Assembly (NCBI GenBank): GCA_001899145.1
Contig: MKVF01000021.1
Coordinates: 310,001 to 374,000 of the forward strand
DNA from: Flavobacteriia bacterium 40-80
Lineage (GTDB): Bacteria > Bacteroidota > Bacteroidia > Flavobacteriales_D > Crocinitomicaceae
Direction of reading: 5' to 3'
DNA: 64,000 nt
This document shows, in pieces, positions 25,802 to 47,869 of this stretch. Under the pieces are notes generated by a model. That model saw only the letters and a list, made by a program, of their open reading frames with translations, ran no database searches and was not told where the DNA came from. Position 1 is the stretch's first letter. Every line of letters starts with the position of its first letter. Made by a program: the position numbers and the translations under genes.

Positions 25802-26578
25802 GTGGATAGTAATACCGTTGTTTTTTACAATCAAGTCAGAAAAGTCTGGGAGGAAATAGCTAGAGAAGGTTCTCATGTGGGAACTAATTTTCAATTAGAA
25901 GTACATAAAAAGCTTTTGAATATATTTCAGCCAGGAGCGTATTATTATTTTATATTTAATGTAGGAAGTGCCGAATTCGAATTTGTAAGCGATCAGATTC
26001 AGGATATTTTAGGATATGATCCGGAGAATCTGAAAGCAGCTTCATTTCTGGATAATATCCACCCGGACGATCAGCTTTATTTCATCCAATTTGAACAAAA
26101 ACTGGCAATTTTTTTTCGGGAATTATCAATTGAAAAAATTCTGAAGTACAAAGTACAATATGACTTTAGAATTAAAGATATTAATGGTAAGTACAAACGA
26201 ATATTGCACCAATTGACTATTATTGAACATGATGAGTATAAAAATCTATTACGCTCGTTTGGCATTCATACAGATATTTCCCATATTAAAAAAGATGGAA
26301 AACCAGAACTCTCATTTATAGGTTTTGACGGAGAACCTTCTTTTCATAATATTCCTGTGGAATCTACTCTTTTTCTTCCTGCAAAAGAATTATTTACTAA
26401 ACGGGAAAAAGAAGTATTAAAACTGGTTGTAAATGGGTTTCTGTCCTCAGAAATAGCAGAACGATTATTTATTTCGCTACACACGGTGAATACACACCGA
26501 AAAAATATTCTCAGAAAATCGAATTGTTCCACATTACCGGAACTCATCTCCAAAACCATTAAGGAAGGCTGGGTATAA
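25802..26578 (+). CDS. PAS domain LuxR-type transcription regulator
   Basis: A 258-residue DNA-binding regulator. A PAS fold covers about 45-160 (IQDILGYDPENL and NIHPDD are typical PAS and PAC elements). A LuxR/FixJ-type helix-turn-helix covers 198-255 (FTKREKEVLKLV, then EIAERLFISLHTVNTHRKNI). There is no receiver domain, so the PAS domain probably senses a small molecule or partner directly. The start is a GTG; no ATG occurs in frame before the PAS domain, and the promoter at 25753-25782 fits this start. It faces a block of exported proteins across a palindrome. Confidence 0.88.
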   Translation: MDSNTVVFYNQVRKVWEEIAREGSHVGTNFQLEVHKKLLNIFQPGAYYYFIFNVGSAEFEFVSDQIQDILGYDPENLKAASFLDNIHPDDQLYFIQFEQKLAIFFRELSIEKILKYKVQYDFRIKDINGKYKRILHQLTIIEHDEYKNLLRSFGIHTDISHIKKDGKPELSFIGFDGEPSFHNIPVESTLFLPAKELFTKREKEVLKLVVNGFLSSEIAERLFISLHTVNTHRKNILRKSNCSTLPELISKTIKEGWV

Positions 26579-30049: not shown

Positions 30050-31609
30050 TTGAATCGAAAGAAGTTAAAATACATTATTTTTCTTGTCTGCTTTGGGTTA
30101 ATTGCCCTTATTGGCATTCAGCTGTTTCAGATTATTGAGCTCTCCAAACGGAAAAATGCCCGGATCGGAGGTTTGATTGATGTTATGGGAAAAGATGTTT
30201 CCGTTGAATACAATCAGATCAATAATAAGATTTTCGAAAATTACTTTTTAAATGACGATGCGAAGTATGCGGAAAATGTTTCCATTAAAGATACGCTGAT
30301 TAATATCGGAAACAGGATTCAACCGTTTTTACTGATCACCGGAACGACTATTGATTCCGCTACTTTTTCAAAATCGGAGCTGAGGGTGGTTTTAGATGCG
30401 GAGGATATTGAGATATTAAATGAGCGCGTTAAAACCGGCGGTGGGTCCGCAGAACTGACGGTCAATCTGGATGATCAGAAAACGAACCAGTTGTTTTCAC
30501 GATCATTGAAATTAAACCGGATGGTGCTGAATGATTTTCTGCTCTATAAATTTTCCAATTACAAGAACGGATTCAATCATAAAACAATAGATTCCCTGAT
30601 AGTAAGCTATATTAACAATAATGAACTTCCCCAGGGATTTTATTACAAGCTGAAAGCAGGAAATACAGATCTCTTATTTGAAAAAAGATATATATACTAT
30701 AAAGCCGGATTGAATGAAGAACAGTGCTTCAGGACAAATTTATTCCTTCAGGGAACAAATGGAGACTCCATTCAACTGTATGTTTCTTTTCCCGACAAGT
30801 CAGGATTTATTTTGAAAGAGATCTTTGTAAATTTATTATTGAGCGTAGGATTGATCGTTTTATTGGCAATCTCTGTCATTTTACTTATCAGAACCTTGTT
30901 TTTTCAGGAAGAATTAAACCGTTCCAAAAATGACTTTATTTCCAATATGTCACATGAGTTTAAAACGCCGATTTCCACTATTTCTCTTGCATGCCAGGCA
31001 CTTGAGGACAAATCCCTTGTGAACGATGTAGAAACCATTCAGCCGTATATCTCCATTATCAGTGAAGAAAATAAAAGGCTCCAGCAGCTTATTGAAGAGA
31101 TCATCCACATTTCGGAAATGAGCGCAAACGAGCTGAAAATGAGCTTTCAAAGAGAAGATCTGGTGGAGATTATGCTGGATGTAGCTGGAGAATTTTCCCC
31201 AAAAATAAGCGAGCTGAACGGAAAGCTTTTAGTAAATATACCGGAAACTGACGAGGAAATCGAAGTAATTGTTGATCGTGCGCATATTGAGAAAGCAATT
31301 AATGCGATTTTAGATAATGCCCTTAAATATTCCAGAGGAATTCCGGAAGTGGAGATCTCTTTGAAGCGCACCAGAAAAAATTCCCAAATAATTATAAAAG
31401 ATAAAGGAATCGGCATTTCTAAAGACTATCTGGACAAAATTTTTGATAAATTGTACCGGATTCCGAAAGGGAATCTGCATAGTGTAAAAGGATTTGGTAT
31501 TGGACTGAGCTTTGCGAAGTCCGTTTTCGATTTACATAATTGGCAGATAAAAGTAAAAAGTATCGTTAATTTTGGGACAACGGTAACAATAACCATTAAA
31601 AAATTATGA
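30050..31609 (+). CDS. Sensor histidine kinase, two-transmembrane type
   Basis: A 519-residue membrane kinase. Helices near 8-28 and 260-285 enclose a periplasmic sensor of about 230 residues. The HisKA box SHEFKTPIS holds the phospho-acceptor H302; the ATPase part has ILDNALKYS (N box), DKGIGI (G1) and GFGIGLSF (G2). The start codon is TTG: no ATG or GTG precedes the first helix in this frame. It overlaps the response-regulator gene by four bases. The layout and 230-residue periplasmic domain match RprX-type kinases of Bacteroidota. Signal unknown. Confidence 0.88.
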   Translation: MNRKKLKYIIFLVCFGLIALIGIQLFQIIELSKRKNARIGGLIDVMGKDVSVEYNQINNKIFENYFLNDDAKYAENVSIKDTLINIGNRIQPFLLITGTTIDSATFSKSELRVVLDAEDIEILNERVKTGGGSAELTVNLDDQKTNQLFSRSLKLNRMVLNDFLLYKFSNYKNGFNHKTIDSLIVSYINNNELPQGFYYKLKAGNTDLLFEKRYIYYKAGLNEEQCFRTNLFLQGTNGDSIQLYVSFPDKSGFILKEIFVNLLLSVGLIVLLAISVILLIRTLFFQEELNRSKNDFISNMSHEFKTPISTISLACQALEDKSLVNDVETIQPYISIISEENKRLQQLIEEIIHISEMSANELKMSFQREDLVEIMLDVAGEFSPKISELNGKLLVNIPETDEEIEVIVDRAHIEKAINAILDNALKYSRGIPEVEISLKRTRKNSQIIIKDKGIGISKDYLDKIFDKLYRIPKGNLHSVKGFGIGLSFAKSVFDLHNWQIKVKSIVNFGTTVTITIKKL

Positions 31610-32301
31610 CTATGAGTAAGAAGATTAGTATTCTTCTGGCAGAAGATGATGATAACCTGGGACAGCTACTTCATTCATTATTGAAATCAAGAGGTTTTGA
31701 CGTAGAGTTGGTAAGAAACGGAAAAATAGCATTTGAACGTTTCAATACTTCCACTTTTGATTTCTGTATCCTTGATGTAATGATGCCGGAGATGGACGGC
31801 TTTACGCTGGCGAAAGAAATCCGGGAGATCGACAAAAAAGTTCCGATTTTGTTCCTGACAGCAAAAGCATTAAAAGAAGATAAGCTGGAAGGATTTTCTC
31901 TTGGTGCCGATGACTACATGACCAAGCCTTTTTCTATGGATGAATTGATCGCACGTATTGAGGCGATTCTGAGAAGAGCAGGAGTGTTTGAGGAAGAGGA
32001 AGAAGCACATTTCATGATAGGTAAAATCAAATACGATCCGGTTTCCCGCTTGCTTTATACTGCTGAAGAGCCTGTAAAGCTCACAACCAAAGAAAATCAA
32101 TTGCTGCGTTTGCTTTGTAAAAATAAAAATGAGGTACTTGACCGGCAGGCGACACTTCGTGCTATCTGGGGAGATGATAATTATTTCAACGGACGAAGCA
32201 TGGATGTTTACATCGCTAAATTAAGAAAGTTGCTAAAAGCGGATGAAAGTGTGGAAATTCTGAATGTACATGGAAAAGGCTTTCAGATGTTAATTAAGTA
32301 A
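31606..32301 (+). CDS. OmpR-family response regulator (RprY-like)
   Basis: A 231-residue regulator with a receiver domain (about 5-120, phospho-acceptor D57 in LDVMMPEMDG, lysine in TKPF) and a winged-helix DNA-binding domain (about 133-230, with KLTTKENQLLRLL and RSMDVYIAKLRKLL). Its ATG overlaps the stop of the kinase, so the pair is one unit. The start may be the first ATG or the ATG two codons on. Targets cannot be read here. Confidence 0.92.
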   Translation: MTMSKKISILLAEDDDNLGQLLHSLLKSRGFDVELVRNGKIAFERFNTSTFDFCILDVMMPEMDGFTLAKEIREIDKKVPILFLTAKALKEDKLEGFSLGADDYMTKPFSMDELIARIEAILRRAGVFEEEEEAHFMIGKIKYDPVSRLLYTAEEPVKLTTKENQLLRLLCKNKNEVLDRQATLRAIWGDDNYFNGRSMDVYIAKLRKLLKADESVEILNVHGKGFQMLIK

Positions 32302-32373: not shown

Positions 32374-34254
32374 TTATTTTTTTTGTTCGAAAAGTCCAAG
32401 AAGTTCATCAACTACAGTAGCATCCTCAATGGTGGAAGGGATTTGAAATTCTTTTCCGTCCGCAATGGTGCGGATTAATTTGCGGAGAATTTTTCCTGAC
32501 CGCGTTTTGGGAAGGCGGTCAACTTCAATCACCCGTTTAAATGAAGTAACAGCACCGATTCGGTCTCTTATCAGTTGTACTAATTCATACTCCAGCTGGA
32601 AATGCTCAATATCTGCATTTTTCTTCCTGATTACTAGCGCTAAAGGGATTTGGCCTTTTAATTCATCTTGTATTCCCACAACGGCACATTCCGCTACAGC
32701 AGGATGAGAAGAAATGTTTTCTTCCATATCGGCAGTTGATAACCGGTGTCCGGCAACATTTATCACGTCGTCTACACGACCTGTTATAAATATATTTCCG
32801 TTTTCATCTTTATAGCCGCCATCACCAGTGAAGAAATAACCATTATACTGTGAAAGGTAACCGGAAACAAATCGTTCGTGATCGTTCCATAGATCAAGTA
32901 GTGTTCCCGGAGGAAGTGGTAGCTTTGTGACAACATATCCTTCCTGATTCGGGCCTAACTCTTGTCCTTCTTCATTTAAGATCTGCAAATTATATCCACA
33001 AACAGGCTTGCCCACAGATCCCAATACAACAGGCAATTCTTCAATTCCAATCATTGGTGCGGCCATTGCCCAGCCTGTTTCTGTCTGCCAGAAATGATCC
33101 AGTGCGGGAATCGGAACATGTTGCTTGAACCAGTTAATAGTTGCAATATCACAGCGTTCACCTGCAAGAAATAACGTACGGAATGCAGATAAATCATATT
33201 GTTTGATGAATTCCCCTTCCGGATCATCTTGTTTTATTGCTCTGATAGCTGTTGGTGCAACAAATAATACACTCACTTTGTGTTCTTCTATTACCCTCCA
33301 GAAGGTAGAGGCATTCGGAGTTCTTACAGGTTTTCCTTCGAACACAACGGTTGTATTTCTGTTGAATAAAGGTCCGTAAGTGATATAGCTGTGACCTACG
33401 ACCCATCCGACATCTGAAGCTGCCCAGAATACTTCGCCCGGTTTCATATTATAAATGCTGGTCATGGAGAATTTCAAAGCAGTGACATAACCTCCCGTAT
33501 CACGGACAATACCTTTCGGTTTTCCTGTTGTACCTGAAGTATAAAGAATATAAAGAGGATGTGTCGATGCTACCGGGATGCACTCTGCTTCTTCGGATTC
33601 GTAAATAAGTGTTCCGTAATCTATATCGTAATGTTTTGCCGGAATTTTTGCGCCTAGTTTCCTGTTAAATAAAATTACCTTATCAGGTTTATGAATTGCC
33701 AGTTCAATAGCTTCATCTACAAGAGGTTTATAAGCGATTAAACGGCTGACTTCTATTCCGGAAGAAGCTGTAATAATTACTTTTGGCTTACAATCGTCAA
33801 TCCGGACAGCTAATTCGTTCGGCGCAAATCCGCCGAATACAACAGAATGAGTAACACCTATTCTGGCACAAGCAAGCATAGCAAATAATGCCTGAGGAAT
33901 CATCGGCATATAAACAACAGCCGTATCTCCTTTTTTCAAACCTAATGAAAGTAATCCGCCGGCTAGTTTTGCTACTTCTGTTTTGACATCGTTAAATGTG
34001 TATTTTTTTACTGTTTGTGTTACAGGTGAGTCATAAATGATAGCCTCTGAATCGCCGTAACCATCTTTTATGTGCTTATCGATTGCAAGGTAGCAGGCAT
34101 TTAATTCGCCATCAGCGAACCACTGTGGATAGTTGTACTCATTTTGAGAAAGGATAGTAGCTGGATTTTTGAACCATTCTAATTGGTCTGCCTGTTCTCG
34201 CCAGAAAGATTCCGGGTTTTCGATACTTTGTTTGAATAGATGGGAGTAATTCAT
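32374..34254 (-). CDS. prpE: Propionyl-CoA synthetase (PrpE/ACSS3-like)
   Basis: A 626-residue AMP-forming acyl-CoA synthetase that activates a short carboxylate via acyl-AMP. It has YTSGTTGKPKG (P-loop-like), an ASDVGWVVGHSY segment and the C-terminal PKTRSGKI with the regulatory lysine K588. Segments such as LNACYLAIDKH, IIYDSPVT and SGIEVSRLIAYKPL fit the propionyl-CoA synthetase branch better than Acs. A distinct acetyl-CoA synthetase is encoded at 41431-43329. Divergent from the zinc-ribbon/HTH gene across 150 bases. Propionate as substrate is inferred. Confidence 0.82.
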   Translation of the reverse strand: MNYSHLFKQSIENPESFWREQADQLEWFKNPATILSQNEYNYPQWFADGELNACYLAIDKHIKDGYGDSEAIIYDSPVTQTVKKYTFNDVKTEVAKLAGGLLSLGLKKGDTAVVYMPMIPQALFAMLACARIGVTHSVVFGGFAPNELAVRIDDCKPKVIITASSGIEVSRLIAYKPLVDEAIELAIHKPDKVILFNRKLGAKIPAKHYDIDYGTLIYESEEAECIPVASTHPLYILYTSGTTGKPKGIVRDTGGYVTALKFSMTSIYNMKPGEVFWAASDVGWVVGHSYITYGPLFNRNTTVVFEGKPVRTPNASTFWRVIEEHKVSVLFVAPTAIRAIKQDDPEGEFIKQYDLSAFRTLFLAGERCDIATINWFKQHVPIPALDHFWQTETGWAMAAPMIGIEELPVVLGSVGKPVCGYNLQILNEEGQELGPNQEGYVVTKLPLPPGTLLDLWNDHERFVSGYLSQYNGYFFTGDGGYKDENGNIFITGRVDDVINVAGHRLSTADMEENISSHPAVAECAVVGIQDELKGQIPLALVIRKKNADIEHFQLEYELVQLIRDRIGAVTSFKRVIEVDRLPKTRSGKILRKLIRTIADGKEFQIPSTIEDATVVDELLGLFEQKK

Positions 34255-34289
34255 TGTTATTGTCTGTTTTATGTTATAAAAATTTTGTC

Positions 34290-34315
34290 TGACTAGTTAA
34301 AAATCCTAACAGTCA
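34290..34315. promoter_or_regulatory. Imperfect inverted repeat between prpE and the zinc-ribbon/HTH gene
   Basis: TGACTAGTTA (34290-34299) faces TAACAGTCA (34307-34315) across seven bases; the arms pair except for one bulged A, and flanking ATTTT and AAAAT extend the symmetry. It is a possible operator for a divergent regulator, 36 bases before the prpE start. No clear TAnnTTTG box is present in this gap. Confidence 0.35.
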
Positions 34316-34404
34316 AAAATAACTTTTTTATGTTTTTTTATTATCTTTTCGTCATATATAATTGCAAAATTGATATATTTATGCTAAATAAATATATCTT
34401 ATTT

Positions 34405-34827
34405 ATGCCATTACAAAAAAAATGCCCGAAATGCAGCTCATTTTCACTTATAAAAAGTGGAATTATAGGAAACAGGCAGCGGTATAAATGTAAAGAATGT
34501 GCTTATTATTTCACTGTCGACAAGATTGGAAAAGAAATTGATAATTACTTTGTTGTAAAAGCATTACAGCTCTATATTGAGGGATTAAGTTTCAGAGAAT
34601 CAGAAAGAATACTGGGAATAAGTCATGTTACCATTTCCAACTGGATTAAAAAATATAATATCAAGCGACCGATAAATGCAACGTATCATCCCACATATAA
34701 GATTTTGTCAGAGTCGGAATTGCAGGAATATTTTAAAAGCAGAGAAAATTTAAAGGGAAAAGGTATGATTATCACGGAAGTCGGAGATAAATTTATGCTG
34801 ATAAAATGGGATCGGTTTAAAGATTGA
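34405..34827 (+). CDS. Zinc-ribbon/helix-turn-helix protein related to IS1-type InsA
   Basis: A 140-residue protein with a C4 zinc ribbon (C7, C10, C29, C32) like the N-terminal domain of IS1-family transposases, followed by a helix-turn-helix (GLSFRESERILGISHVTISNW, about 65-87) and a C-terminal tail of about 50 residues. No DDE nuclease reading frame and no terminal repeats accompany it, so it is not an active element. The start is the ATG at 34405; upstream codons look like non-coding A/T sequence. It is the only DNA-binding protein in the carboxylate locus and is divergent from prpE, so a regulator derived from a transposase is my inference. Confidence 0.7.
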   Translation: MPLQKKCPKCSSFSLIKSGIIGNRQRYKCKECAYYFTVDKIGKEIDNYFVVKALQLYIEGLSFRESERILGISHVTISNWIKKYNIKRPINATYHPTYKILSESELQEYFKSRENLKGKGMIITEVGDKFMLIKWDRFKD

Positions 34828-34949
34828 AATATTTTTAATTAATTTATTATTAGTGTTTTAATTTGATTAAAAGTATATATATTACCATATAAATACATAT
34901 TATTTTTTCTTTTACTTTCTTTTTCTTCACTTAGCCGAAATCAAAAACG

Positions 34950-36275
34950 ATGGTTATGAAGATAAAAGACTACTGCTTAATCGCACTTTTGATAGTTGTT
35001 TTTTCTGGTAATTTCCTGGCGCAGGGTTATCAGGACTACGAAACAGGATTAAAAGTAAAAATCAATGAATCTGGTTCTCGTTACTTCAGACTTCTTGCAT
35101 GGAATCAAATATGGCTGAAATATAACGAAAATAATACCGGAAGCACTCTTGCCGGTAAACCTGAAAATACAGCTGTTGATTTATCATTACGGCGAATTCG
35201 TTTACTTATGTATGCCCAATTGACAGATAAATTCATTATCGTAACGCATTTTGGGATAAACAATCAGAATACTTTCAGCGGAGGAGCTCCCGGGCAAGGA
35301 GGTAAAAAGCCACAGCTGTTTATGCACGATGCTTACGCAGAGCACAAGATATGGAAGAATTATATTTCGCTCGGAGCTGGTCTGCATTACTGGAACGGTA
35401 TTTCCAGATCGACAAATGCAAGTACGTTGAATTTCCTTGCGATTGATGCACCGATCTTTAACTGGACAAATATTGATAAGAGTGATCAGTTTGGCAGGTA
35501 TCTTGGAATTTATGCAAAAGGAAAAATAAAAAAGTTTGATTACCGAATTGCAGCCAATGATGCTTTTCAGGCAAATGATTCAAAAGTAATTTTTGATAAT
35601 GCCGCAGAATACAATCCACATGCTAAGTGGATGACGGCAGGGTATTTTAATTACCAGTTCTTCGATGAAGAATCTAATTTGCTTCCCTACATGGTTGGTA
35701 CTTATCTTGGAAGTAAGAAAGTGCTGACTGTCGGAGCAGGATTTCAACATCAGAAAAATGCGATGTGGATGAGAAATTCAGCCGGAGATACTGTTAATCA
35801 GGATCAGCTTTTACTTAGCGGCGATGTATTTCTGGATTTGCCTTTGAGCAAAAAACACAAAGACGCAATAACATTCTATGGGGTATATTACAATTACAAC
35901 ATGGGTACGAACTATGTTCGTCATATAGGGATTCTTAATCCGTCAGATGGTGGCGGAGTATTGAGAGGAAATGCCGTTCCGACAATTGGTACGGGTTCTA
36001 TATTATACGGTCAGTTGGGTTATCTGGTTCCTGAATTTTCATCTAAGCTTAGAATCCAGCCGTATGCAGCATTTTCTCATGCACGTTTTAAGGGACTCCG
36101 AGATGCAAATGATAAAATTGTCCCTGTAAATATTCTGGATGCAGGTATAAACTTTTATATGGCAGGACATCATCTGAAGTGGACTGTAAATTACCGACTT
36201 AGACCTGATTTTGCAGATGTGAATAATCTGAAAAACAGAAATGAGCTAACACTACAACTAATGGTATATCTATAA
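34950..36275 (+). CDS. Outer-membrane porin
   Basis: A 441-residue protein with a signal peptide (about 1-25, ending FLAQ) and a body of amphipathic strands with many aromatic residues, ending in NELTLQLMVYL, as in porin-type barrels. The layout is like phosphate-selective porins of the OprP/OprO family and other carboxylate-associated porins. It is followed after 25 bases by the MHS transporter. It probably lets small carboxylates across the outer membrane; this is inferred from context. Confidence 0.75.
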   Translation: MVMKIKDYCLIALLIVVFSGNFLAQGYQDYETGLKVKINESGSRYFRLLAWNQIWLKYNENNTGSTLAGKPENTAVDLSLRRIRLLMYAQLTDKFIIVTHFGINNQNTFSGGAPGQGGKKPQLFMHDAYAEHKIWKNYISLGAGLHYWNGISRSTNASTLNFLAIDAPIFNWTNIDKSDQFGRYLGIYAKGKIKKFDYRIAANDAFQANDSKVIFDNAAEYNPHAKWMTAGYFNYQFFDEESNLLPYMVGTYLGSKKVLTVGAGFQHQKNAMWMRNSAGDTVNQDQLLLSGDVFLDLPLSKKHKDAITFYGVYYNYNMGTNYVRHIGILNPSDGGGVLRGNAVPTIGTGSILYGQLGYLVPEFSSKLRIQPYAAFSHARFKGLRDANDKIVPVNILDAGINFYMAGHHLKWTVNYRLRPDFADVNNLKNRNELTLQLMVYL

Positions 36276-36300: not shown

Positions 36301-37815
36301 ATGAGTACAGAAAACAAAAACAGTATTGTAAAGGTTATCGGTGCGTCGTCCTTGGGCACGCTGATCGAATGGTATGACTTTTACATTTTTGGAAGTTTGG
36401 CGACTATTATCGGATCTAAATTATTTCCTTCCGACGCCGGTGCGTCTGCTTTAATTAACACATTGGCAATTTTTGCTGCAGGATTTATTGTCCGTCCGTT
36501 CGGAGCATTGGTATTCGGACGCCTTGGAGATTTAATCGGAAGGAAGTACACCTTTCTTTTGACTTTGGTTTTGATGGGAGGATCTACCTTTCTTATTGGT
36601 TTGATACCTTCTTATGAAACAATTGGTTACGCAGCTCCGATTCTCGTTCTGATTCTTCGTTTGGTTCAGGGACTTGCACTTGGAGGAGAGTATGGTGGTG
36701 CGGCAACATATGTGGCAGAACACGCTCCAAAAGGAAAACGAGGTTATTTCACAAGTTGGATTCAGACAACTGCTACTTTAGGATTGTTCATCTCTCTGGG
36801 AGTTATTGTTGTAACTAAAAATACATTAGGGAATGAAATGTTCTCAGACTGGGGTTGGAGAGTGCCGTTCCTTCTTTCTATCCTTTTGGTAGTGGTGTCG
36901 ATTTATATTCGTATGAAAATGCATGAATCACCTGAATTTACACGCCTTAAGTCCGAAGGAAAAGTTTCTAAAAATCCATTGAAAGACAGCTTCAGCAAAA
37001 AAGAGAACTTCAAAATGGTGTTACTGGCATTGTTCGGTGCTGCGATGGGACAAGGCGTTATCTGGTACACAGGGCAGTTTTACGCGCAGTCATTCATCGA
37101 AAATACGTGTAAAGTAGATTTTAATGACTCCCGTTATATTCTATTGTGGGCAATCGCATTTGCAACACCTTTCTTTGTGGTGTTCGGTTCATTAAGTGAT
37201 AAAGTAGGCAGAAAATGGATTATGATGCTGGGAATGTTACTGGGAATTTTGTTTTACCGGCCGATTTACCAAAACTTCCTTGACAGCACAGACTATGCAA
37301 AACTGGAACAAACAGAATTAAAATCAGCGGAGGCTCCGTCTGTAGTGAGAGCACTTGCGCCGAATGGTGCAGATAGTACAATTACCACTACGACATTAAA
37401 AACGCTTAACAGCGGAGCAACTTACAAAGAGATCAAGACAACAACTGTCTTCGCTGATTCTTCTTTAGAACCAGCAGAAACAGTTGTATTAAAGGACAAA
37501 ACGTTAGCTGCGGCGACATTCTGGAAATTCGTTGCACTGGTGTTTTTTCAGGTGCTTTTAGTAACCATGGTGTATGGACCAATTGCTGCATTTTTAGTAG
37601 AATTATTCCCGACAAAAATCCGATATACTTCCATGTCTCTGCCTTATCACATTGGAAATGGAGTGTTTGGTGGACTGGTTCCGTTTATTGCAACATTGAT
37701 TATCAGTTATCAGGGATCCACACCACTTTCCGGCTTATGGTATCCGATCGGAGTTGCTGCCGTATGTCTAATCATCGGATCCATTTATTTAAGTAATAAT
37801 ACACATAAACGCTAA
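36301..37815 (+). CDS. MHS-type MFS transporter with a large loop insert
   Basis: A 504-residue 12-helix permease of the metabolite:proton symporter group. Motifs include GTLIEWYDFYIFG (helix 1), RPFGALVFGRLGDLIGRKYT (loop 2-3) and GLALGGEYGGAATYVAEHAP. Between helices 9 and 10 (about residues 320-402) it carries a polar Ser/Thr-rich insert of some 80 residues that ordinary members of about 430 residues lack. Members import carboxylates, proline/betaine or shikimate. Its position between a porin and acyl-CoA synthetase genes favours a short-chain carboxylate. Confidence 0.88.
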   Translation: MSTENKNSIVKVIGASSLGTLIEWYDFYIFGSLATIIGSKLFPSDAGASALINTLAIFAAGFIVRPFGALVFGRLGDLIGRKYTFLLTLVLMGGSTFLIGLIPSYETIGYAAPILVLILRLVQGLALGGEYGGAATYVAEHAPKGKRGYFTSWIQTTATLGLFISLGVIVVTKNTLGNEMFSDWGWRVPFLLSILLVVVSIYIRMKMHESPEFTRLKSEGKVSKNPLKDSFSKKENFKMVLLALFGAAMGQGVIWYTGQFYAQSFIENTCKVDFNDSRYILLWAIAFATPFFVVFGSLSDKVGRKWIMMLGMLLGILFYRPIYQNFLDSTDYAKLEQTELKSAEAPSVVRALAPNGADSTITTTTLKTLNSGATYKEIKTTTVFADSSLEPAETVVLKDKTLAAATFWKFVALVFFQVLLVTMVYGPIAAFLVELFPTKIRYTSMSLPYHIGNGVFGGLVPFIATLIISYQGSTPLSGLWYPIGVAAVCLIIGSIYLSNNTHKR

Positions 37816-38336: not shown

Positions 38337-41030
38337 ATGGTTGGAGGTTTCATTTTTGTTGTATTGATTTTGTATCTGGCAGTGCTGTTCTGGATTGCTT
38401 ACAGGATTGATTTATCAAAAAAATGGAGAAAACGAATTGCGGGAAGCCCCGTGATTTATGCATTGACACTCGCTGTTTACTGTTCCGCCTGGACATTTTT
38501 CGGAAGTGTCGGAGCTGCGTCCACTTACAGCATTGAATTTTTGACGATTTACATTGGTCCGCTTATTGCCACTCCTTTTTTATGGATCGTTTACCGCAAG
38601 ATTATCCGTATTTCTAAAACGCAGGGAATTTCTTCCATTGCAGACTTTATATCAACCCGTTATAACAAAAACAGTTTATTAAACAGACTGGTAACTATTT
38701 TTCTGGTGGTTGGCATCATTCCTTATATTGCGTTACAGATTACAGGTATTGAACGAAGCCTGGAAACCTGTATTTCGTGGGGAAGTGAGGTAAATAAAGG
38801 AATCACGTTCTTTGGAATGATCGACATGGCATTAATTGTGACTATTGGCCTGGGGTTATTCTTAATTGCCTTTACAACGAGGCAATTACAGGATAATACT
38901 CAGAATAAAGGATTGATTGGAGCAATTGCCTTTGAATCTGTTGTTAAGCTGGTTGTTTTTCTCATTTTTGGTATTTATGTCTGTTATTATATTTTTAATA
39001 ACCAGTCAGATGTGTATAATTTATTACCCGAAAAAGGACTTTTGGTAAATCCGGATAATAGTTATTCCCAATGGTTTGGAATGATAGTGCTTTCAGGATT
39101 TGCGTTCTTTTTCCTTCCTCGTCAGTTCGAAGTTGGGGTGTTTGCTTCCGGTAATGAGCAGCAGTTGAAAAAAGCAATGTGGATGTTTCCTCTTTATTTG
39201 ATTTTAATTAATCTGTTTGTTATTCCGATTGCGATTGCCGGAAATTATTTTTTTGCCGAAACAGAAGTAAATAAAGATACATACATGCTTGCAATACCAC
39301 TGTTACACCAGCATTTTGGTATGGCATTACTGGTATTGCTCGGGGGATTTTCTGCGGCGAGCGGAATGATTATTGTTTCTACACATGCGATCAGCAAAAT
39401 GGTCGCTAATTCCATTTTAATTCCTGCTTTTATTGACAGTGGATTTATTCTTAGACGATTTAAAGGAAAGCATCATAAAATCCCTGTTTTCTTTAGAAGA
39501 ATAAGCATTTTGATTGTACTGCTGATGGCTTATTTTTATTACAAGCTTGTAGCTGTTGAATATTCGCTGATTTCTATTGGTCTCGTATCATTTATAGCTG
39601 TTTCCCAATTTGCACCGGCCATTCTCGGAGGTATTTTCTGGAAATACGGAAGTGTGAAAGGAGCATTTGCTGGTATAATCAGTGGATTTACAATCTGGTT
39701 TTTCTTTTTGGTGGTTCCGACTATTTTCGGCGGAGAAATAAACAAGAATTATATTCAGCTGATTACGGATTCTTTCGCGGAAAATCACGGAGCAATTATT
39801 ACTACGGTTTTCTTCTGGTCTATGTTTGCAAATAGCTCGCTCTACATCGTTGTGTCATTGCTGACCAGGCAAAGTCCTCTGGAACGAAATCAGGCAGAAT
39901 TATTTGTAAATATTTACAATTATTCCGAATCGCTCGAATCTTCTGTTTTGTGGAAAGGAAAAGCATTTTTTCCTGATATCCAGTCTTTGTTAGCTCGTTT
40001 TCTTGGTGAACAACGAGCAAATTATGAACTGTTGACATTTACAGAAAAAAACAACATTAGTCTGGATGAAAAAGAAGAGCTTGATTCAAGAGTTATTCTT
40101 CACGCGGAAAAATTACTGAGTAATATGATCGGTTCTTCCTCTGCCCGTATCTTGGTTTCTTCTGTTGCAAAAGAAGATCAGATTTCCATGGAGGACGTTG
40201 TCGGAATTCTGGAAGAATCGCATAAGCTGATGCAGCTGAATAAAGAATTAAACCAGACTTCGCAGGAACTCAAGCGCCTTTCGAATGTTTTAAAATCAAC
40301 TAATTTAAAGCTGAAGAAAAATGATTTATTGAAAGATGAATTTCTATACACCGTGACGCACGAGCTGAGAACTCCTCTGACAAGTATAAAAGCATTGAGT
40401 GAGCTGCTGGCGGACGATGACAAAATGCCGGAAGAAATAAAAAAAGAATTTCTACAGACGATCCTGAAAGAAACAAATCGGATGACGCGGTTGATTTCTC
40501 AGGTGCTGGATCTGGAAAATTTTGAGTCAGGTAAACATCAGTTGCGGATTTCGTATTCGGACATTAATGAACTGGTAATTTACTGTACAAATGCGATGGA
40601 AGAAATTTTCAAGAAAAAAAATATCCGCCTGTATATTATTCTGGATGATGCCATTCCGACAATCGAATTGGATTATGACCGTATAACGCAGGTAGTAATT
40701 AACCTGCTGACCAATGCATCCAATCACTGCAACAATGAAAAGGGAGAGATCTGGATCAGCACAAAAAAGCACCATAATAATGTGGTGGTAGAAGTAGCTG
40801 ATAATGGAGCAGGAGTTGAAGAAGGCATGGAGCAGGCTATTTTTGAGAAATTTTTTCAGGCCGATAATAAGGGAGTCCGTAAATCAAAAGGAAGTGGATT
40901 GGGACTTGCAATTTCAAAAAAAATTATCCAGCTGCATGAAGGAAAAATATGGACGGAAAAACATGAACCGGAAGGAGCAGCGTTTATTTTTACAATACCG
41001 TTCGAACAAAATAAATATATAGTGGCATGA
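38337..41030 (+). CDS. Sodium:solute symporter-histidine kinase fusion (CbrA-like)
   Basis: An 897-residue fusion. The first 550 residues form a 12-13 helix sodium:solute symporter (SSS) domain. A short coiled linker (about 600-660, LNKELNQTSQELKRL) follows, then a histidine kinase with phospho-acceptor H675 in THELRTPLTS, N box NLLTNASNHC, G1 DNGAGV and G2 GSGLGLA. There is no PAS domain. Fusions of this kind, such as CbrA, link transport or occupancy of a substrate site to signalling. The gene overlaps the receiver protein by four bases and is followed by acs, so acetate or a related acid is the likely ligand. Confidence 0.92.
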   Translation: MVGGFIFVVLILYLAVLFWIAYRIDLSKKWRKRIAGSPVIYALTLAVYCSAWTFFGSVGAASTYSIEFLTIYIGPLIATPFLWIVYRKIIRISKTQGISSIADFISTRYNKNSLLNRLVTIFLVVGIIPYIALQITGIERSLETCISWGSEVNKGITFFGMIDMALIVTIGLGLFLIAFTTRQLQDNTQNKGLIGAIAFESVVKLVVFLIFGIYVCYYIFNNQSDVYNLLPEKGLLVNPDNSYSQWFGMIVLSGFAFFFLPRQFEVGVFASGNEQQLKKAMWMFPLYLILINLFVIPIAIAGNYFFAETEVNKDTYMLAIPLLHQHFGMALLVLLGGFSAASGMIIVSTHAISKMVANSILIPAFIDSGFILRRFKGKHHKIPVFFRRISILIVLLMAYFYYKLVAVEYSLISIGLVSFIAVSQFAPAILGGIFWKYGSVKGAFAGIISGFTIWFFFLVVPTIFGGEINKNYIQLITDSFAENHGAIITTVFFWSMFANSSLYIVVSLLTRQSPLERNQAELFVNIYNYSESLESSVLWKGKAFFPDIQSLLARFLGEQRANYELLTFTEKNNISLDEKEELDSRVILHAEKLLSNMIGSSSARILVSSVAKEDQISMEDVVGILEESHKLMQLNKELNQTSQELKRLSNVLKSTNLKLKKNDLLKDEFLYTVTHELRTPLTSIKALSELLADDDKMPEEIKKEFLQTILKETNRMTRLISQVLDLENFESGKHQLRISYSDINELVIYCTNAMEEIFKKKNIRLYIILDDAIPTIELDYDRITQVVINLLTNASNHCNNEKGEIWISTKKHHNNVVVEVADNGAGVEEGMEQAIFEKFFQADNKGVRKSKGSGLGLAISKKIIQLHEGKIWTEKHEPEGAAFIFTIPFEQNKYIVA

Positions 41031-41398
41031 GTAGCAGCAAAAAAATATTAATAGTTGATGATGAGCCAAGTATTGTTCTCTCTCTGGATTATCTGATGCG
41101 TAAAAACGGTTTTCAGCCGTTTATTGCCAGAAACGGGGAAGAAGCGTTAGTGATATCGAAAAAAGAAATGCCGGCATTGATTATTCTGGATATTATGATG
41201 CCCGGAATAGACGGGTATCAGGTGTGTGAACAACTTAAAGGTAATCCCGAAACTGCGGGAATCAAGATTATTTTCCTGTCCGCAAAATCAGGAAAAGAAG
41301 CGATAGAAAAAGGACTAAACGTCGGAGCAGATAAATATTTAACCAAACCATTTAATACAAAACAAATCATGCAGGAAGTGTTAGACTTGCTGCAATAA
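41027..41398 (+). CDS. Receiver-only response regulator
   Basis: A 123-residue CheY-like protein with the acidic pair D11/D12, phospho-acceptor D55 (LDIMMPG), S85 and K107 (TKPF). It has no output domain, so it must pass the signal to another protein. It overlaps the SSS-kinase gene by four bases and is its obvious partner. acs starts 32 bases after it. Confidence 0.92.
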   Translation: MSSSKKILIVDDEPSIVLSLDYLMRKNGFQPFIARNGEEALVISKKEMPALIILDIMMPGIDGYQVCEQLKGNPETAGIKIIFLSAKSGKEAIEKGLNVGADKYLTKPFNTKQIMQEVLDLLQ

Positions 41399-41430: not shown

Positions 41431-43329
41431 ATGAGTAAATTACAAATCAAATCATTCGAAGAGTACAAAGAAAAGTACAAACAAAGTATTGAGCATCCGG
41501 AAGAATTCTGGGCGGAAGTAGCAGAAGAATTTCAATGGATAAAAAAATGGGACAAAGTGCTCGAATGGAATTTCCAGGAGCCTAAAGTAGAATGGTTTAA
41601 AGGAGCAAAATTAAATATTACGGAAAATGCACTGGATCGTCACTTGGCAACGAGAGGTAATAAATTAGCGTTGATATGGGAGCCTAATGATCCAAAACAG
41701 CGTTTTATACGATATACTTATCGAGAATTATATGAGCACGTGTGCCAATTCGCCAATGCCTTAAAAGAAAAAGGAATAGGTAAGGGAGATCGTGTTTGTA
41801 TCTATATGCCCATGATTCCCGAGCTGGCGATAGCAGTACTGGCTTGTGCCAGAATCGGTGCAATACATTCTGTTGTATTTGCGGGGTTTTCATCTTCTGC
41901 TCTTGCAGATAGAATTAATGACGCAGAAGCAAAAGCCGTGATTACGTCTGATGGTTTGAATCGCGGAGCGAAGCAGATCCCGGTTAAACGTGTTGTGGAT
42001 GAAGCATTGGAGTCTTGCAGTTCGATTGAAAGTGTGATTGTTTTTGATTGTTTGGGATGGATGCCTAATATGCAGGAAGGACGTGATTATTGGTGGCATG
42101 AAGTTGTTGCAGGGCAGCCAAAATCTTGTCAGCCGGAACCGATGGACGCGGAAGATGAGTTGTTTATTTTATATACCTCCGGATCAACAGGAAAGCCTAA
42201 AGGTGTTGTGCATACATGTGGAGGATATATGGTAGGAGCAGCCTACACATTCCAGAATGTTTACCAATGTGATGAGTCAGATATTTATTGGTGTACTGCG
42301 GATGTTGGCTGGATTACAGGACATACTTACATTGTTTATGGTCCGCTTATTTCAGGAACAACAAGTGTTATGTTTGAGGGAATTCCGACTTATCCGGATC
42401 CGGGACGTTTCTGGCAGGTAATTGATAAGCACAGTGTCAATCAGTTTCTAACAGCACCTACGGCAATCCGCTCATTGATGGCTCATGGAGAAGACCACGT
42501 TTTATCCTATAGCTTAGATTCGTTGAAGGTATTGGGTTCTGTTGGTGAGCCGATTAACGATGAGGCATGGAAATGGTATCATTTACACGTAGGAAAAGAA
42601 AGGTGTCCGATTGTGGATAACTGGTGGCAGACAGAAACAGGTGCCATTATGATCTCAGGGATTGGGAATATATCGCCGATGAAACCCACTTATGCAGGTT
42701 ACCCGCTTCCGGGAGTAAATCCGGTTCTGCTTAATCAGGAAGGAAAAGAAATAGAAGGAGCGGATGAGGAAGGTTATTTGTGTATCAAATCACCGTGGCC
42801 TTCAATGCTGCGTACGACATGGGGAGATCATGAACGTTGCCGTGTAACGTATTTCTCTACTTATGACGGGTACTATTTTACGGGCGATGGAGCAAAACGC
42901 GATCAGAGCGGAATGTACCGTATTATCGGACGGGTGGATGACGTGATAAATGTTTCGGGACATCGCTTTGGTACAGCAGAAATAGAAAGTGCGATTAACA
43001 CAAGTGATAATGTGGTTGAATCAGCGGTTGTCGGTTTTCCTCATCCGGTAAAAGGACAATCAATTTATGCTTTTGTGGTTTGTGAGAAAGCTCCTGAAGA
43101 TGAGATTCATGCAAAAGGAGAAATTGTAGAGTCTGTTGTGGCGGAAATTGGTAAAATAGCTATTCCGGAGAAAATTCAGTTCGTCAGCGGTTTGCCTAAA
43201 ACACGATCAGGGAAAATTATGAGACGTATCCTTCGTAAAATCGCTGAAGGTGAAGTTGCTAATTTGGGAGATACAAGTACATTGCTTGATCCGAATGTAG
43301 TAGATGAGCTGATAGAAGGAAGATTGTAG
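41431..43329 (+). CDS. acs: Acetyl-CoA synthetase
   Basis: A 632-residue AMP-forming synthetase making acetyl-CoA from acetate, ATP and CoA. The YTSGSTGKPKG loop begins at Y248. The conserved ADVGWITGHTY and the C-terminal PKTRSGKIMRR with K595 (the lysine acetylated in Acs) are intact. N-terminal features (EEFWAEVAEEFQW, WFKGAKLNITENALDRH) match Acs rather than PrpE. It ends the sensor unit, after which a strong terminator stands at 43361-43388. Confidence 0.95.
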   Translation: MSKLQIKSFEEYKEKYKQSIEHPEEFWAEVAEEFQWIKKWDKVLEWNFQEPKVEWFKGAKLNITENALDRHLATRGNKLALIWEPNDPKQRFIRYTYRELYEHVCQFANALKEKGIGKGDRVCIYMPMIPELAIAVLACARIGAIHSVVFAGFSSSALADRINDAEAKAVITSDGLNRGAKQIPVKRVVDEALESCSSIESVIVFDCLGWMPNMQEGRDYWWHEVVAGQPKSCQPEPMDAEDELFILYTSGSTGKPKGVVHTCGGYMVGAAYTFQNVYQCDESDIYWCTADVGWITGHTYIVYGPLISGTTSVMFEGIPTYPDPGRFWQVIDKHSVNQFLTAPTAIRSLMAHGEDHVLSYSLDSLKVLGSVGEPINDEAWKWYHLHVGKERCPIVDNWWQTETGAIMISGIGNISPMKPTYAGYPLPGVNPVLLNQEGKEIEGADEEGYLCIKSPWPSMLRTTWGDHERCRVTYFSTYDGYYFTGDGAKRDQSGMYRIIGRVDDVINVSGHRFGTAEIESAINTSDNVVESAVVGFPHPVKGQSIYAFVVCEKAPEDEIHAKGEIVESVVAEIGKIAIPEKIQFVSGLPKTRSGKIMRRILRKIAEGEVANLGDTSTLLDPNVVDELIEGRL

Positions 43330-43489: not shown

Positions 43490-46400
43490 ATGTACTTAAT
43501 ATTTGATACGGAAACAACTGGTTTACCACGCGATTGGAATTTAGATTACACGCATTCGGATAACTGGCCGAGAGCCGTACAGATAGCATGGCAATTACAT
43601 GATGATTTGGGGAATCTGTTAGAGGCAAAGGACTATCTGGTAAAACCGGAAGGATTTAATATTCCTTACGATGCTGAGCGTATTCATGGTATTTCCACGG
43701 ATCTGGCAATAGAAGCAGGAGAATCACTGGATTTTGTCCTGCAGGCTTTTTATGAAGCTGTAAATAAAGCGGATTTTATAGTTGGTCATAATGTCGGATT
43801 CGATATCAATATCATGTCCGCGGAATACTATCGTCAGAATCCGGAGAGACCGTTTCTGCTTGAAAAAACCGTTTTAGATACCTGTACGGAGAAAACAGCT
43901 GAACTATGTAAACTTCCCGGAGGTCGAGGAGGCCGTTACAAGCTGCCGACACTGACAGAATTAAATCAGTTCCTGTTTCAGGAATCATTTGCCGAAGCGC
44001 ATAATGCAACTGCTGACGTTGAAGCAACGACGCGTTGTTTCCTTGAATTAGTTCGCCGGGAAGAATTTTCCGTTGAAGAATTAAGACAGGATAACGATTA
44101 TTTCAACAGATATAAGGCGAACAATCCGGTTTCGATCCGCCCGGTAGGATTGAAGCATCTGAACCTGAAAGAAGCAAGTCAGCTGCTGAAAAAAGAGAAA
44201 GGAGCGGCGGAAACGAAAGCTCCTGTTGAAAAAGCGGATATCACAGCCTTACAGAATATTCCTTTTGCACACCTGCACAATCACTCCCAATTCACCATTC
44301 TGCAATCAACAACAACGATCAGAGATCTGGTGAACCTCACGATTCAGAATAACCTTCCGGCAGTTGCTTTAACAGACAACGGGAATATGATGGGAGCTTT
44401 TCACTTTGAAAAAGCGATCAGCGAATACAATAAAAAAGTAAAAGCGGAAAAGGCCGCCGCGGAAGAGAAAGGAGAACCGTATGACAAGCAGCCGATTCTG
44501 CCGGTTATCGGCTGTGAGTTTAACGTTTGTAAAGATCATACTGATAAAAGCCAGAAAGACAACGGGTACCAGATTGTCCTGCTGGCAAAAAATAAGACAG
44601 GGTATCAAAACCTTATCAAAATGGCATCCATTGCTTATACGCAGGGAATGTATTACGTTCCGCGTATTGACAAAAATGTCATCCGCCAATATAAAGAAGA
44701 AGTTATTGTCCTTTCAGGAAATTTATACGGGGAAATTCCGAATCTGATTTTAAATGTCGGAGAAGTTCAGGCGGAGGAAGCACTGCTTTGGTGGAAAGAA
44801 CAGTTTGGAGAAGATTTTTACCTGGAGATCATGCGCCACGGACAGGAGGATGAGGACCGTGTCAATGAAACGTTAATCCGTTTCTCGGAAAAGCATCAGG
44901 TAAAATTAGTAGCAACTAATAATACATATTACCCGAAAGAAAGCGATGCGGTTTCCCATGACATTCTTTTATGTGTGAAGGAAAATGAGCTGCAATCTAC
45001 TCCGATTGGAAAGGGAAGAGGATTCCGCTATGGTTTTCCGAATGATAAATACTATTACCGGACAGCAGATGAAATGCGTCGGCTTTTTGCTGACCTGCCT
45101 CAGGCGCTGGAAAGTGTTGCTGAAATTATTTCCAAAATTGAACCATATCAGCTAAGCCGTGACGTATTGCTTCCGGCTTTTGAAATTCCTGAACAATTTC
45201 GTGATTCCCGGGATCTGGAAGACGGAGGGAAACGAGGTGAAAATAATTATTTGCGCTACCTTACTTACGAGGGAGCGAAAAAACGATACAAAGAGATCAC
45301 GGAAGAGCTCAAAGAGCGGCTGGATTTTGAATTAGCGACGATTGAGCGTACCGGTTATCCGGGTTACTTCCTTATTGTGCAGGACTTTTGCCAGGCAGCA
45401 AGAGATATGGGAGTTTCCGTAGGGCCGGGGCGTGGCTCCGCTGCCGGTTCCGCAGTAGCCTATTGCATTGGAATAACAAATGTCGATCCTATTGAGTATG
45501 ACCTCCTTTTTGAGCGTTTCCTGAATCCTGACCGTATTTCCATGCCCGATATTGATATTGACTTTGATGATGAGGGGCGCGGGCGTGTAATTGATTGGGT
45601 AATCAACAAATACGGAGCGAACCAGGTTGCACAGATTATTACGTACGGGACGATGGCAGCCAAATCTTCTATCAGAGATACTGCCCGCGTGATGGACTTA
45701 CCGCTTTTTGAAGCGGATAAAATCGCCAAGCTGATTCCTGACCTGTCATTAAATAAGATTTTTACACTTGATGAACCGACGCTTCACGATAAGCTGAAAA
45801 ATAAACAGGAAGATATCCAGGCCGTTAACGAGCTGAAGCGTATTCGTGAAGGCGGTGGAAAACCTGCGGAAGTCATAGAGCAGGCGATTAAGCTGGAAGG
45901 CTCCATGCGGAATACGGGAATCCACGCTTGCGGTGTAATCATCACACCGGATGACATTACCAATTATGTTCCTGTCGCGACGGCGAAAGATTCCGACATG
46001 TGGTGTACGCAATTCGATAACTCTGTGGCGGAGCAGGCCGGATTGCTGAAGATGGACTTCCTTGGGCTGAAAACACTGACATTGATCAAGCATGCTGTCC
46101 GGAACATAAAAGAACGTCATGGTACGGAGCTGGATCCGGATAATTTTCCGATTGATGACGTTCCGACGTATGAGCTTTTCCAACGGGGTGAAACCATCGG
46201 GATCTTCCAGTACGAGTCCGCCGGAATGCAGAAATACATGCGTGAGCTGAAACCAACTGTATTTGCCGACTTGATCGCGATGAACGCATTGTATCGTCCG
46301 GGACCTCTGGAGTACATTCCGTCGTTTATCCGGAGAAAAAATGGAGAAGAGCTTATTGAATACGACCTTGAGGCATCCGAAGAATACCTGAAAGAAACGT

Positions 46401-47869
46401 ATGGTATCACCGTTTACCAGGAGCAGGTGATGCTTTTATCCCAGAAGCTGGCGAATTTTACGAAAGGCGAAGCGGACGTGCTGCGTAAGGCGATGGGTAA
46501 AAAGCAAAAGGACGTTTTGGATAAAATGAAGCCGAAGTTCATCGAACAGGCCTCTTCCGTGAACGGACATAATAAGGAAAAGCTGGAAAAGATCTGGAAA
46601 GACTGGGAAGCATTTGCAGCCTACGCTTTCAACAAGTCCCATTCCACCTGTTATGCCTGGGTGGCCTATCAGACAGCTTACTTAAAAGCGAATTACCCGG
46701 CGGAATACATGGCTTCGGTGCTGTCTAATAACATGAATGATATCAAGCAGGTATCCATGTTTATGGAAGAATGCCGGCGTATGGGAATTGAAGTGCTTGG
46801 ACCGGATGTTAACGAATCGTCCTATTATTTTACGGTAAATAAAGCGGGCGCGGTCCGTTTCGGGCTTGGAGCCGTTAAAGGACTGGGAAGTGCGCCGGTA
46901 GAAGCGATCATCAAAGAACGGAATGAAAATGGGAATTTTACATCTATTTTTGATTTTGTACGGAGAATCAGCCTGAGAGCGTGTAACAAAAAGGCGCTGG
47001 AAAGCCTGGCGTATGCCGGCGGATTTGATTCATTTAAAGAAGCGACGCGGTCACAGCTTTTTAAAGAAGACGGAACAGGCAGAACATTTATAGAGCAATT
47101 GATCCGTTACGGAAACTCCTTCCAGGAGAGTATTAATTCTTCCCAGGCTTCGCTTTTTGGTGAAGGAAGCGCTGTTGCGATGCCGGAACCTTCCGTTCCG
47201 AGATCGGAAGAATGGCCGTCTCTGTATAAGCTGAACAAAGAAAAAGAAGTGATAGGAATTTTTATTTCCGGTCATCCTCTGGATGATTACAAGCTGGAAA
47301 TTGAATCGTTTTGCACAGGAAACGTTGGAATGTTGAGCGCTCCGCACGAACATCTGAATAAAGAAATTTTACTTGCCGGAATCGTCACGGAATGTTCCGA
47401 AAGAATGTCTAAAAACAATTCCATGTTCGGGATCATGACAATTGAAGATTACAATGATTCTTACCAGCTGTTCATGTTCAGTGAGAACTACCAGCGCTTT
47501 AAGCCGTTTTTCAATCAGAATAATTTTGTTGCTATCCGTGGAAAATTTGAAGTTCCGCAATATCGTAAAGACCCTGAATTCAGAGTGATCAGCATGGAAC
47601 GTCTTCAGGAATTGAAAGATAAGATGGCGCATGACCTTCAGATCAGAGTTTCCAACAAACGGTTAGACCAGTTGCTGATCAGCGATCTGAACAGCCTGTT
47701 CGTGCAGAATCCCGGAAAATGTAATCTGACTTTCCAGGTGTATGATCCGTTAGATGAAGGATTATGTGTGGATATGAATTCCAGGAATATCCGTGTAAAC
47801 CCAACCAAAGAGCTGGTTCAGCAGCTGGCAGGGATGGAAGTGGAATTCAGGTTAAAATCGAAGAGATGA
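43490..47869 (+). CDS. dnaE: DNA polymerase III alpha subunit fused to a DnaQ-type exonuclease
   Basis: A 1459-residue replicative polymerase. Residues 1-190 form a DEDDh 3'-5' exonuclease with D6, E8, D105, H171 and D176 all present. A PHP domain starts near 258 (HLHNHS, H261, H263, H265). The polymerase core has the catalytic aspartates of PDIDIDF (D687, D689, with D691 nearby). A beta-clamp binding motif QASLF is at 1219-1223, and a C-terminal OB fold and tail follow. Proofreading is thus built into the same chain. Its length exceeds the E. coli protein (1160) mainly by this N-terminal domain. Confidence 0.95.
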   Translation: MYLIFDTETTGLPRDWNLDYTHSDNWPRAVQIAWQLHDDLGNLLEAKDYLVKPEGFNIPYDAERIHGISTDLAIEAGESLDFVLQAFYEAVNKADFIVGHNVGFDINIMSAEYYRQNPERPFLLEKTVLDTCTEKTAELCKLPGGRGGRYKLPTLTELNQFLFQESFAEAHNATADVEATTRCFLELVRREEFSVEELRQDNDYFNRYKANNPVSIRPVGLKHLNLKEASQLLKKEKGAAETKAPVEKADITALQNIPFAHLHNHSQFTILQSTTTIRDLVNLTIQNNLPAVALTDNGNMMGAFHFEKAISEYNKKVKAEKAAAEEKGEPYDKQPILPVIGCEFNVCKDHTDKSQKDNGYQIVLLAKNKTGYQNLIKMASIAYTQGMYYVPRIDKNVIRQYKEEVIVLSGNLYGEIPNLILNVGEVQAEEALLWWKEQFGEDFYLEIMRHGQEDEDRVNETLIRFSEKHQVKLVATNNTYYPKESDAVSHDILLCVKENELQSTPIGKGRGFRYGFPNDKYYYRTADEMRRLFADLPQALESVAEIISKIEPYQLSRDVLLPAFEIPEQFRDSRDLEDGGKRGENNYLRYLTYEGAKKRYKEITEELKERLDFELATIERTGYPGYFLIVQDFCQAARDMGVSVGPGRGSAAGSAVAYCIGITNVDPIEYDLLFERFLNPDRISMPDIDIDFDDEGRGRVIDWVINKYGANQVAQIITYGTMAAKSSIRDTARVMDLPLFEADKIAKLIPDLSLNKIFTLDEPTLHDKLKNKQEDIQAVNELKRIREGGGKPAEVIEQAIKLEGSMRNTGIHACGVIITPDDITNYVPVATAKDSDMWCTQFDNSVAEQAGLLKMDFLGLKTLTLIKHAVRNIKERHGTELDPDNFPIDDVPTYELFQRGETIGIFQYESAGMQKYMRELKPTVFADLIAMNALYRPGPLEYIPSFIRRKNGEELIEYDLEASEEYLKETYGITVYQEQVMLLSQKLANFTKGEADVLRKAMGKKQKDVLDKMKPKFIEQASSVNGHNKEKLEKIWKDWEAFAAYAFNKSHSTCYAWVAYQTAYLKANYPAEYMASVLSNNMNDIKQVSMFMEECRRMGIEVLGPDVNESSYYFTVNKAGAVRFGLGAVKGLGSAPVEAIIKERNENGNFTSIFDFVRRISLRACNKKALESLAYAGGFDSFKEATRSQLFKEDGTGRTFIEQLIRYGNSFQESINSSQASLFGEGSAVAMPEPSVPRSEEWPSLYKLNKEKEVIGIFISGHPLDDYKLEIESFCTGNVGMLSAPHEHLNKEILLAGIVTECSERMSKNNSMFGIMTIEDYNDSYQLFMFSENYQRFKPFFNQNNFVAIRGKFEVPQYRKDPEFRVISMERLQELKDKMAHDLQIRVSNKRLDQLLISDLNSLFVQNPGKCNLTFQVYDPLDEGLCVDMNSRNIRVNPTKELVQQLAGMEVEFRLKSKR

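Follow-up and report, generated by a model that had tools for sequence, protein, structure and literature searches.

An InsA-like protein as the probable regulator of an acetate and propionate gene cluster in Flavobacteriales and related Bacteroidota

The window (the whole stretch of DNA that was analysed, 64 kb in length) contains at 34405-34827 a gene for a 140-residue protein, hereafter TF. Its description in the original prediction as a C4 zinc ribbon followed by an HTH is borne out at exactly these coordinates (Table 1). Translation starts at ATG 34405, as backed by the N-termini of relatives; an in-frame ATG at 34384, which would fall inside the conserved operator described below, is an unlikely start. 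As had been proposed, TF is divergent from a prpE-like gene and heads a series of genes that reads porin, MFS symporter, SSF-transporter/histidine-kinase fusion (SSF-kinase), stand-alone receiver and acs. The SSF-kinase is made up of PF00474, HisKA and HATPase_c domains, and its Pfam and NCBIfam matches include no STAC model. The receiver was correctly described as having no output domain. The further claim that TF is the only local candidate for DNA binding calls for a correction: an OmpR/PhoB-like regulator (31606-32301) and a LuxR-like regulator (25802-26578), both recognized by eye, are encoded nearby, but TF is the only one that is conserved with the cluster. Directly downstream of acs, at 43490-47869, lies a gene for a DnaE-like polymerase that seems to carry an exonuclease domain at its N-terminus (it starts MYLIFDTETTGLP); this gene was not seen downstream of acs in a related locus, L164.

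Table 1. Features of TF and of the gene cluster around it in the window
Feature	Position	Strand	Remarks
TF	34405..34827	+	140-aa zinc-ribbon and HTH protein, a putative regulator, probably derived from IS1 InsA
C4 zinc ribbon of TF	34423..34500	+	Cys 7, 10, 29 and 32, all invariant
HTH domain of TF	34543..34653	+	residues 47-83; three helices in the predicted model
Conserved C-terminal tail of TF	34693..34824	+	residues 97-140; InsA frame-0 tail matched to about residue 127
Candidate tandem operator	34362..34397	+	TTGCAAAATTGATATATTTATGCTAAATAAATATAT; units 34363-34378 and 34382-34397
Propionate/acetate-CoA ligase, PrpE-like	32374..34254	-	divergent from TF; putative operator region in common with TF
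Outer-membrane porin-like protein	34950..36275	+	weak ExtI porin match
MFS metabolite:H+ symporter	36301..37815	+	in some relatives DUF4212 and a VC_2705-type sodium/solute symporter instead
SSF-transporter/histidine-kinase fusion	38337..41030	+	domain order CrbS/CbrA-like
Stand-alone receiver (REC)	41027..41398	+	123 aa, without output domain
Acetyl-CoA synthetase (acs)	41431..43329	+	

The zinc-ribbon cysteines (C7-C10-C29-C32) and the HTH core, where S73, H74, V75, N79 and W80 are the invariant residues, show no variation in an alignment of 36 TF relatives. The match of TF to the NCBIfam IS1 transposase model NF033558 covers positions 1-117 of 199 with 68 bits, which is below the cut-off of 100; with the model for the IS1/IS1595 zinc domain, NF050000, TF scores above the cut-off. 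The NF033558 match stops at 117 and TF has no DDE part, in agreement with the earlier claim that no transposase is present. Where the first catalytic Asp would be expected, TF has another residue, and no insB-like or nuclease ORF adjoins the gene in the ORF list. Likewise, the reported absence of terminal repeats is upheld, no inverted repeat of at least 12 bp being found in 34000-35200. The gene occurs once in the genome, the next match having E = 0.01. A separate, true IS1-like transposase is encoded on another contig of this genome (C18:192887), and a degenerate IS1-like remnant containing stop codons lies at G000:C10:21318-21582 (L104, L105). The predicted model of TF has a mean pLDDT of 82 and a pTM of 0.52; a fold search of the PDB with this model gave no match at E < 0.001. 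TF is under strong purifying selection: dN is 0.02-0.09 in most pairs and dS 0.7-1.3 where measurable (it is saturated in more distant pairs), so that dN/dS is near 0.02-0.03 wherever dS can be measured. One very close pair has a dN of 0 and a dS of 0.16.

In the IS1 element of E. coli, InsA represses the promoter of the insertion sequence, and its zinc-finger and HTH motifs are needed for binding (PMC12428005). The resemblance of TF to this InsA half of IS1, on which the original prediction was built, proves firm and extends over nearly the full length of the protein. TF is about 35-38% identical over residues 6-135/140 to the frame-0 InsA proteins of ELDEM-type IS1, and its alignment with the frame-0 InsA encoded by Methylobacter, Methanomethylovorans and Tenacibaculum elements reaches residue 127-140 of TF. 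The ELDEM motif of InsA is aligned with ILxxxEL in TF, the Asp being lost. A profile of the TF tail (residues 97-140) favours frame 0, with 15.3 bits versus a best score of 5.0 in 1800 decoys; the tail past the frameshift site, taken alone, gives a weak 5.1 bits versus a decoy maximum of 4.6. It is suggestive, from these alignments, that TF may have kept the out-of-frame tail of InsA. InsA has nothing that corresponds to the last 13 residues of TF, DKFMLIKWERFKD, which are strongly conserved. In a maximum-likelihood tree, which is unrooted and has few columns and long branches, all TF sequences group in a single clade (94/92), next to the ELDEM-type IS1 proteins. The latter are present in archaea, Gammaproteobacteria and Bacteroidota; the TF clade was found in this analysis only in Bacteroidota. 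That TF is an exapted InsA, present in many Flavobacteriales and related Bacteroidota, is thus a well-supported reading of the sequences; a single capture of InsA in Bacteroidota appears to have been followed by its fixation as the regulator of the module.

Two other proteins carry related domains. A LacI-type regulator (G312, L143:5054-6238) has the same IS1/InsA-like zinc ribbon fused to its N-terminus, which suggests repeated reuse of this ribbon in regulators of Bacteroidota. In addition, locus L015 (G037) encodes a 180-residue zinc-ribbon and HTH protein without a DDE domain, InsA-like and stand-alone but not TF, together with an integrase-like protein.

A genome scan gave 471 TF relatives. 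The synteny figures refer to the best 80 of these 471, a sample biased towards close relatives and consisting mostly of Flavobacteriales and their kin. Relatives that are 59-84% identical to TF head the same cluster, in the order TF, porin, transporter, SSF-kinase, receiver and acs/prpE. The porin gene is directly downstream of TF in 78/80 loci; where 6.5 kb of flank is available, SSF-kinase and receiver follow TF in 74/75 loci, and 73/75 contain acs or prpE. In other families the module is the same with swaps, the MFS carrier being replaced by DUF4212 and a VC_2705-type symporter; as the divergent ligase, acs can take the place of prpE. No DNA-binding protein other than TF is conserved with the module in the loci of these best 80 of 471 relatives. 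The synteny with acs or prpE, which the original prediction had singled out for checking, is therefore strong and conserved across relatives. Linkage to mobile elements was not seen: neither phage records nor viral contigs yielded a TF-type relative, and the plasmid matches found by tblastn are all below 60% identity and are mostly annotated as IS1 transposases. With a single copy and this synteny, the reading of TF as a domesticated regulator is well supported.

TF and the SSF-kinase tend to be present together. Of 150 genomes of the order, 18 encode TF, and precisely these 18 encode the SSF-kinase; acs is present in 134. In the presence tables of seven genera with mixed presence, the two genes always change together. 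In two genomes (G148, L198; G015, L199), TF and SSF-kinase have been lost together, and the MFS carrier and acs remain side by side. In a sample of the phylum, TF is present in all 28 genomes of the class that have the SSF-kinase. In one genome of the class (G328, L139), a full-length TF lies near acs and the SSF-kinase is missing; conversely, 13 genomes that belong to other classes encode an SSF-kinase but no TF. The two proteins thus do not strictly need each other, and their co-occurrence may in part result from the block inheritance and loss of one gene cluster. The SSF-kinase loci of the other classes, read for a replacement regulator, contain no clear DNA-binding gene; the neighbours look by eye PAS/kinase-like or kinase/exonuclease-like. 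In two of these loci without TF (L135 and L145), SSF-kinase and receiver are followed by a protein of about 717 residues with a kinase-like part and then a C-terminal exonuclease-like part bearing a DLETTGLNP motif.

The region 34255-34404, proposed earlier as the place where TF binds, does contain a conserved element, a 36-bp tandem motif that is a presumptive binding site. In 92/92 loci, the stretch directly in front of TF contains a match to TTGCTAAATTAnTATATTTATGCTAAATTAnTATAT, in which two GCTAA-N5-TATA units follow one another with a 19-bp period. Its core columns hold near 2 bits, whereas the 100 columns upstream average 0.30 bits each. The site in the window scores 49 bits, the next best within the 64 kb scoring -1.9, and with up to 3 mismatches it occurs once in the genome (control 0). 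In most loci its end is at most 8 bp from the TF start codon; as the site reaches up to the start codon, it may in part be a promoter or ribosome-binding signal. A site of the same form can be read by eye in L165 and in the GC-rich TF locus L139; the full 36-bp matrix gives no score in the divergent TF loci L139, L140 and L160. In L148-L150, where the porin operon has moved away from TF, a second tandem copy is found about 220-240 bp before that operon. No tandem site is present in 10/11 acs loci without TF, and in G015 (L199:5975-6010) the tandem operator has been kept between the MFS gene and acs after the loss of TF, porin and SSF-kinase. A reverse-oriented unit stands right after the TF stop codon in 28/91 loci versus 0.4 expected in shuffles; this porin-side site is not detectable in the window (0.1 bit), though real across relatives. 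Finally, a scan with a 15-mer single unit gave eight matches, two of which are the operator itself. We claim no wider TF regulon, because the other six fall mostly inside genes.

The best overall explanation of these data, and one that we hold to be likely, is that a domesticated InsA is dedicated to the regulation of a short-chain-acid module by way of the tandem site. TF very probably controls the acetate/propionate cluster through the conserved site in front of its own gene, as far as can be judged from sequence. It would bind the 36-bp tandem site that ends just before its start codon and from there control its own promoter, as InsA does, presumably by repression. It would also control the porin-to-acs operon and, in the window, the divergent prpE. 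The SSF-kinase may sense acetate and propionate or their transport, and would phosphorylate the stand-alone receiver. This receiver probably acts via TF, because it has no DNA-binding domain. A relay from kinase to receiver to TF is the natural hypothesis, given a receiver without output and a TF that is the sole DNA-binding protein conserved with the module. We propose tentatively, rating the chance as slightly below even, that the InsA-derived TF replaced the DNA-binding output of a CrbS-like two-component system in Bacteroidia, acting on tandem operators. TF may also be able to work alone, since L139 has it without the kinase.

Indeed, TF could regulate the uptake/acs operon independently of kinase and receiver, for instance with its C-terminal tail as the sensor of a ligand or acyl-CoA, the receiver acting elsewhere. 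Such independence would suit L139, which pairs TF with acs and has no SSF-kinase, and the SSF-kinase/REC pairs that occur outside the class without TF. It would also suit the last 13 residues, whose conservation without an InsA counterpart is as expected of a sensing or dimerisation element. We nevertheless think it rather unlikely, in view of the 18/18 co-occurrence with the SSF-kinase, the joint loss of the two while transporter and acs stay, and a receiver that has no output domain in a cluster with which no other DNA-binding gene is conserved. Still less probable is that the 36-bp site mainly serves as a promoter and start-codon signal or is bound by another regulator, TF acting elsewhere or only on itself. 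A tandem repeat with a 19-bp period would be an unusual promoter layout; moreover, the porin operon that has moved away in L148-L150 has a second copy in front of it, and the site occurs once in the genome and is absent at 10/11 acs loci without TF. These observations outweigh the facts that the site in most loci borders directly on the start codon of TF, contains a TAnnTTTG-like element and persists in L199, where TF was lost.

As to the origin of TF, the protein might never have been mobile: a host zinc-ribbon/HTH protein would then be the common ancestor of TF and of the InsA of IS1, and the element would have captured it. The unrooted tree is compatible with this course of events, as is the similar zinc ribbon on the LacI-type regulator of L143. 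It is made improbable by the spread of ELDEM-type IS1 proteins over archaea, Gammaproteobacteria and Bacteroidota, against a single TF clade seen here only in Bacteroidota, and by the alignment of the TF tail with the frame-0 reading of InsA in a segment close to the frameshift site. A decaying IS1 remnant or functionless passenger might be imagined from the homology to IS1 transposase and the missing DDE domain. Conservation across families with a dN/dS near 0.02-0.03 contradicts this, as do invariant zinc and HTH residues, a single copy and fixed synteny, and we give it next to no probability. Descent from a captured InsA is thus the origin that we prefer.

Like InsA, TF is a small, in its case presumed, DNA-binding protein with a C4 zinc ribbon and an HTH and without a catalytic domain, and it presumably has its site at the start of its own gene. 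Unlike InsA, it lies outside any element, is single-copy and fixed beside acs/prpE, has lost the catalytic Asp position and carries a C-terminus of 13 residues of its own; it presumably recognizes a tandem direct repeat instead of terminal inverted repeats. The cluster, for its part, resembles a known system. In Gammaproteobacteria, acs is controlled by the SSF-kinase CrbS and the LuxR-type regulator CrbR (PMC5715377). As in CrbS/CrbR (MxtR/ErdR), which is a two-component system that regulates acetate use, an SSF/histidine-kinase fusion is tied in the window to acs and carboxylate transport. However, CrbR is a receiver-HTH activator of the LuxR family that needs an imperfect inverted repeat, and the window encodes a stand-alone REC; the DNA-binding role would fall here to an InsA-derived TF with a direct-repeat site.

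Transcription factors derived from mobile genetic elements are an already known kind. TldR is reportedly a host regulator derived from the mobile-element protein TnpB. Mu Ner and SfsB are further mobile-element proteins that were reused as host regulators (PMC8987985); the same review of such regulators mentions neither IS1 nor InsA. TF shares with TldR and Ner/SfsB an origin in mobile elements, but its own source would be the IS1 repressor InsA. In the literature searched, outside which most subscription literature lies, we found no description of a CrbS-like acetate module that has a readable tandem operator and is regulated by a descendant of InsA, and no regulator of acetate or propionate use in Flavobacteriales and their relatives. 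Genes of the TF type may be annotated as IS1 transposases and hence overlooked. TF would represent a clean and ancient case of an insertion-sequence repressor turned host regulator, with a presumed operator that can be read in more than 90 loci. It points to a way in which a two-component system might operate when its receiver lacks an output domain, and it offers a proposal for the control of acetate and propionate use in Flavobacteriales and their relatives.
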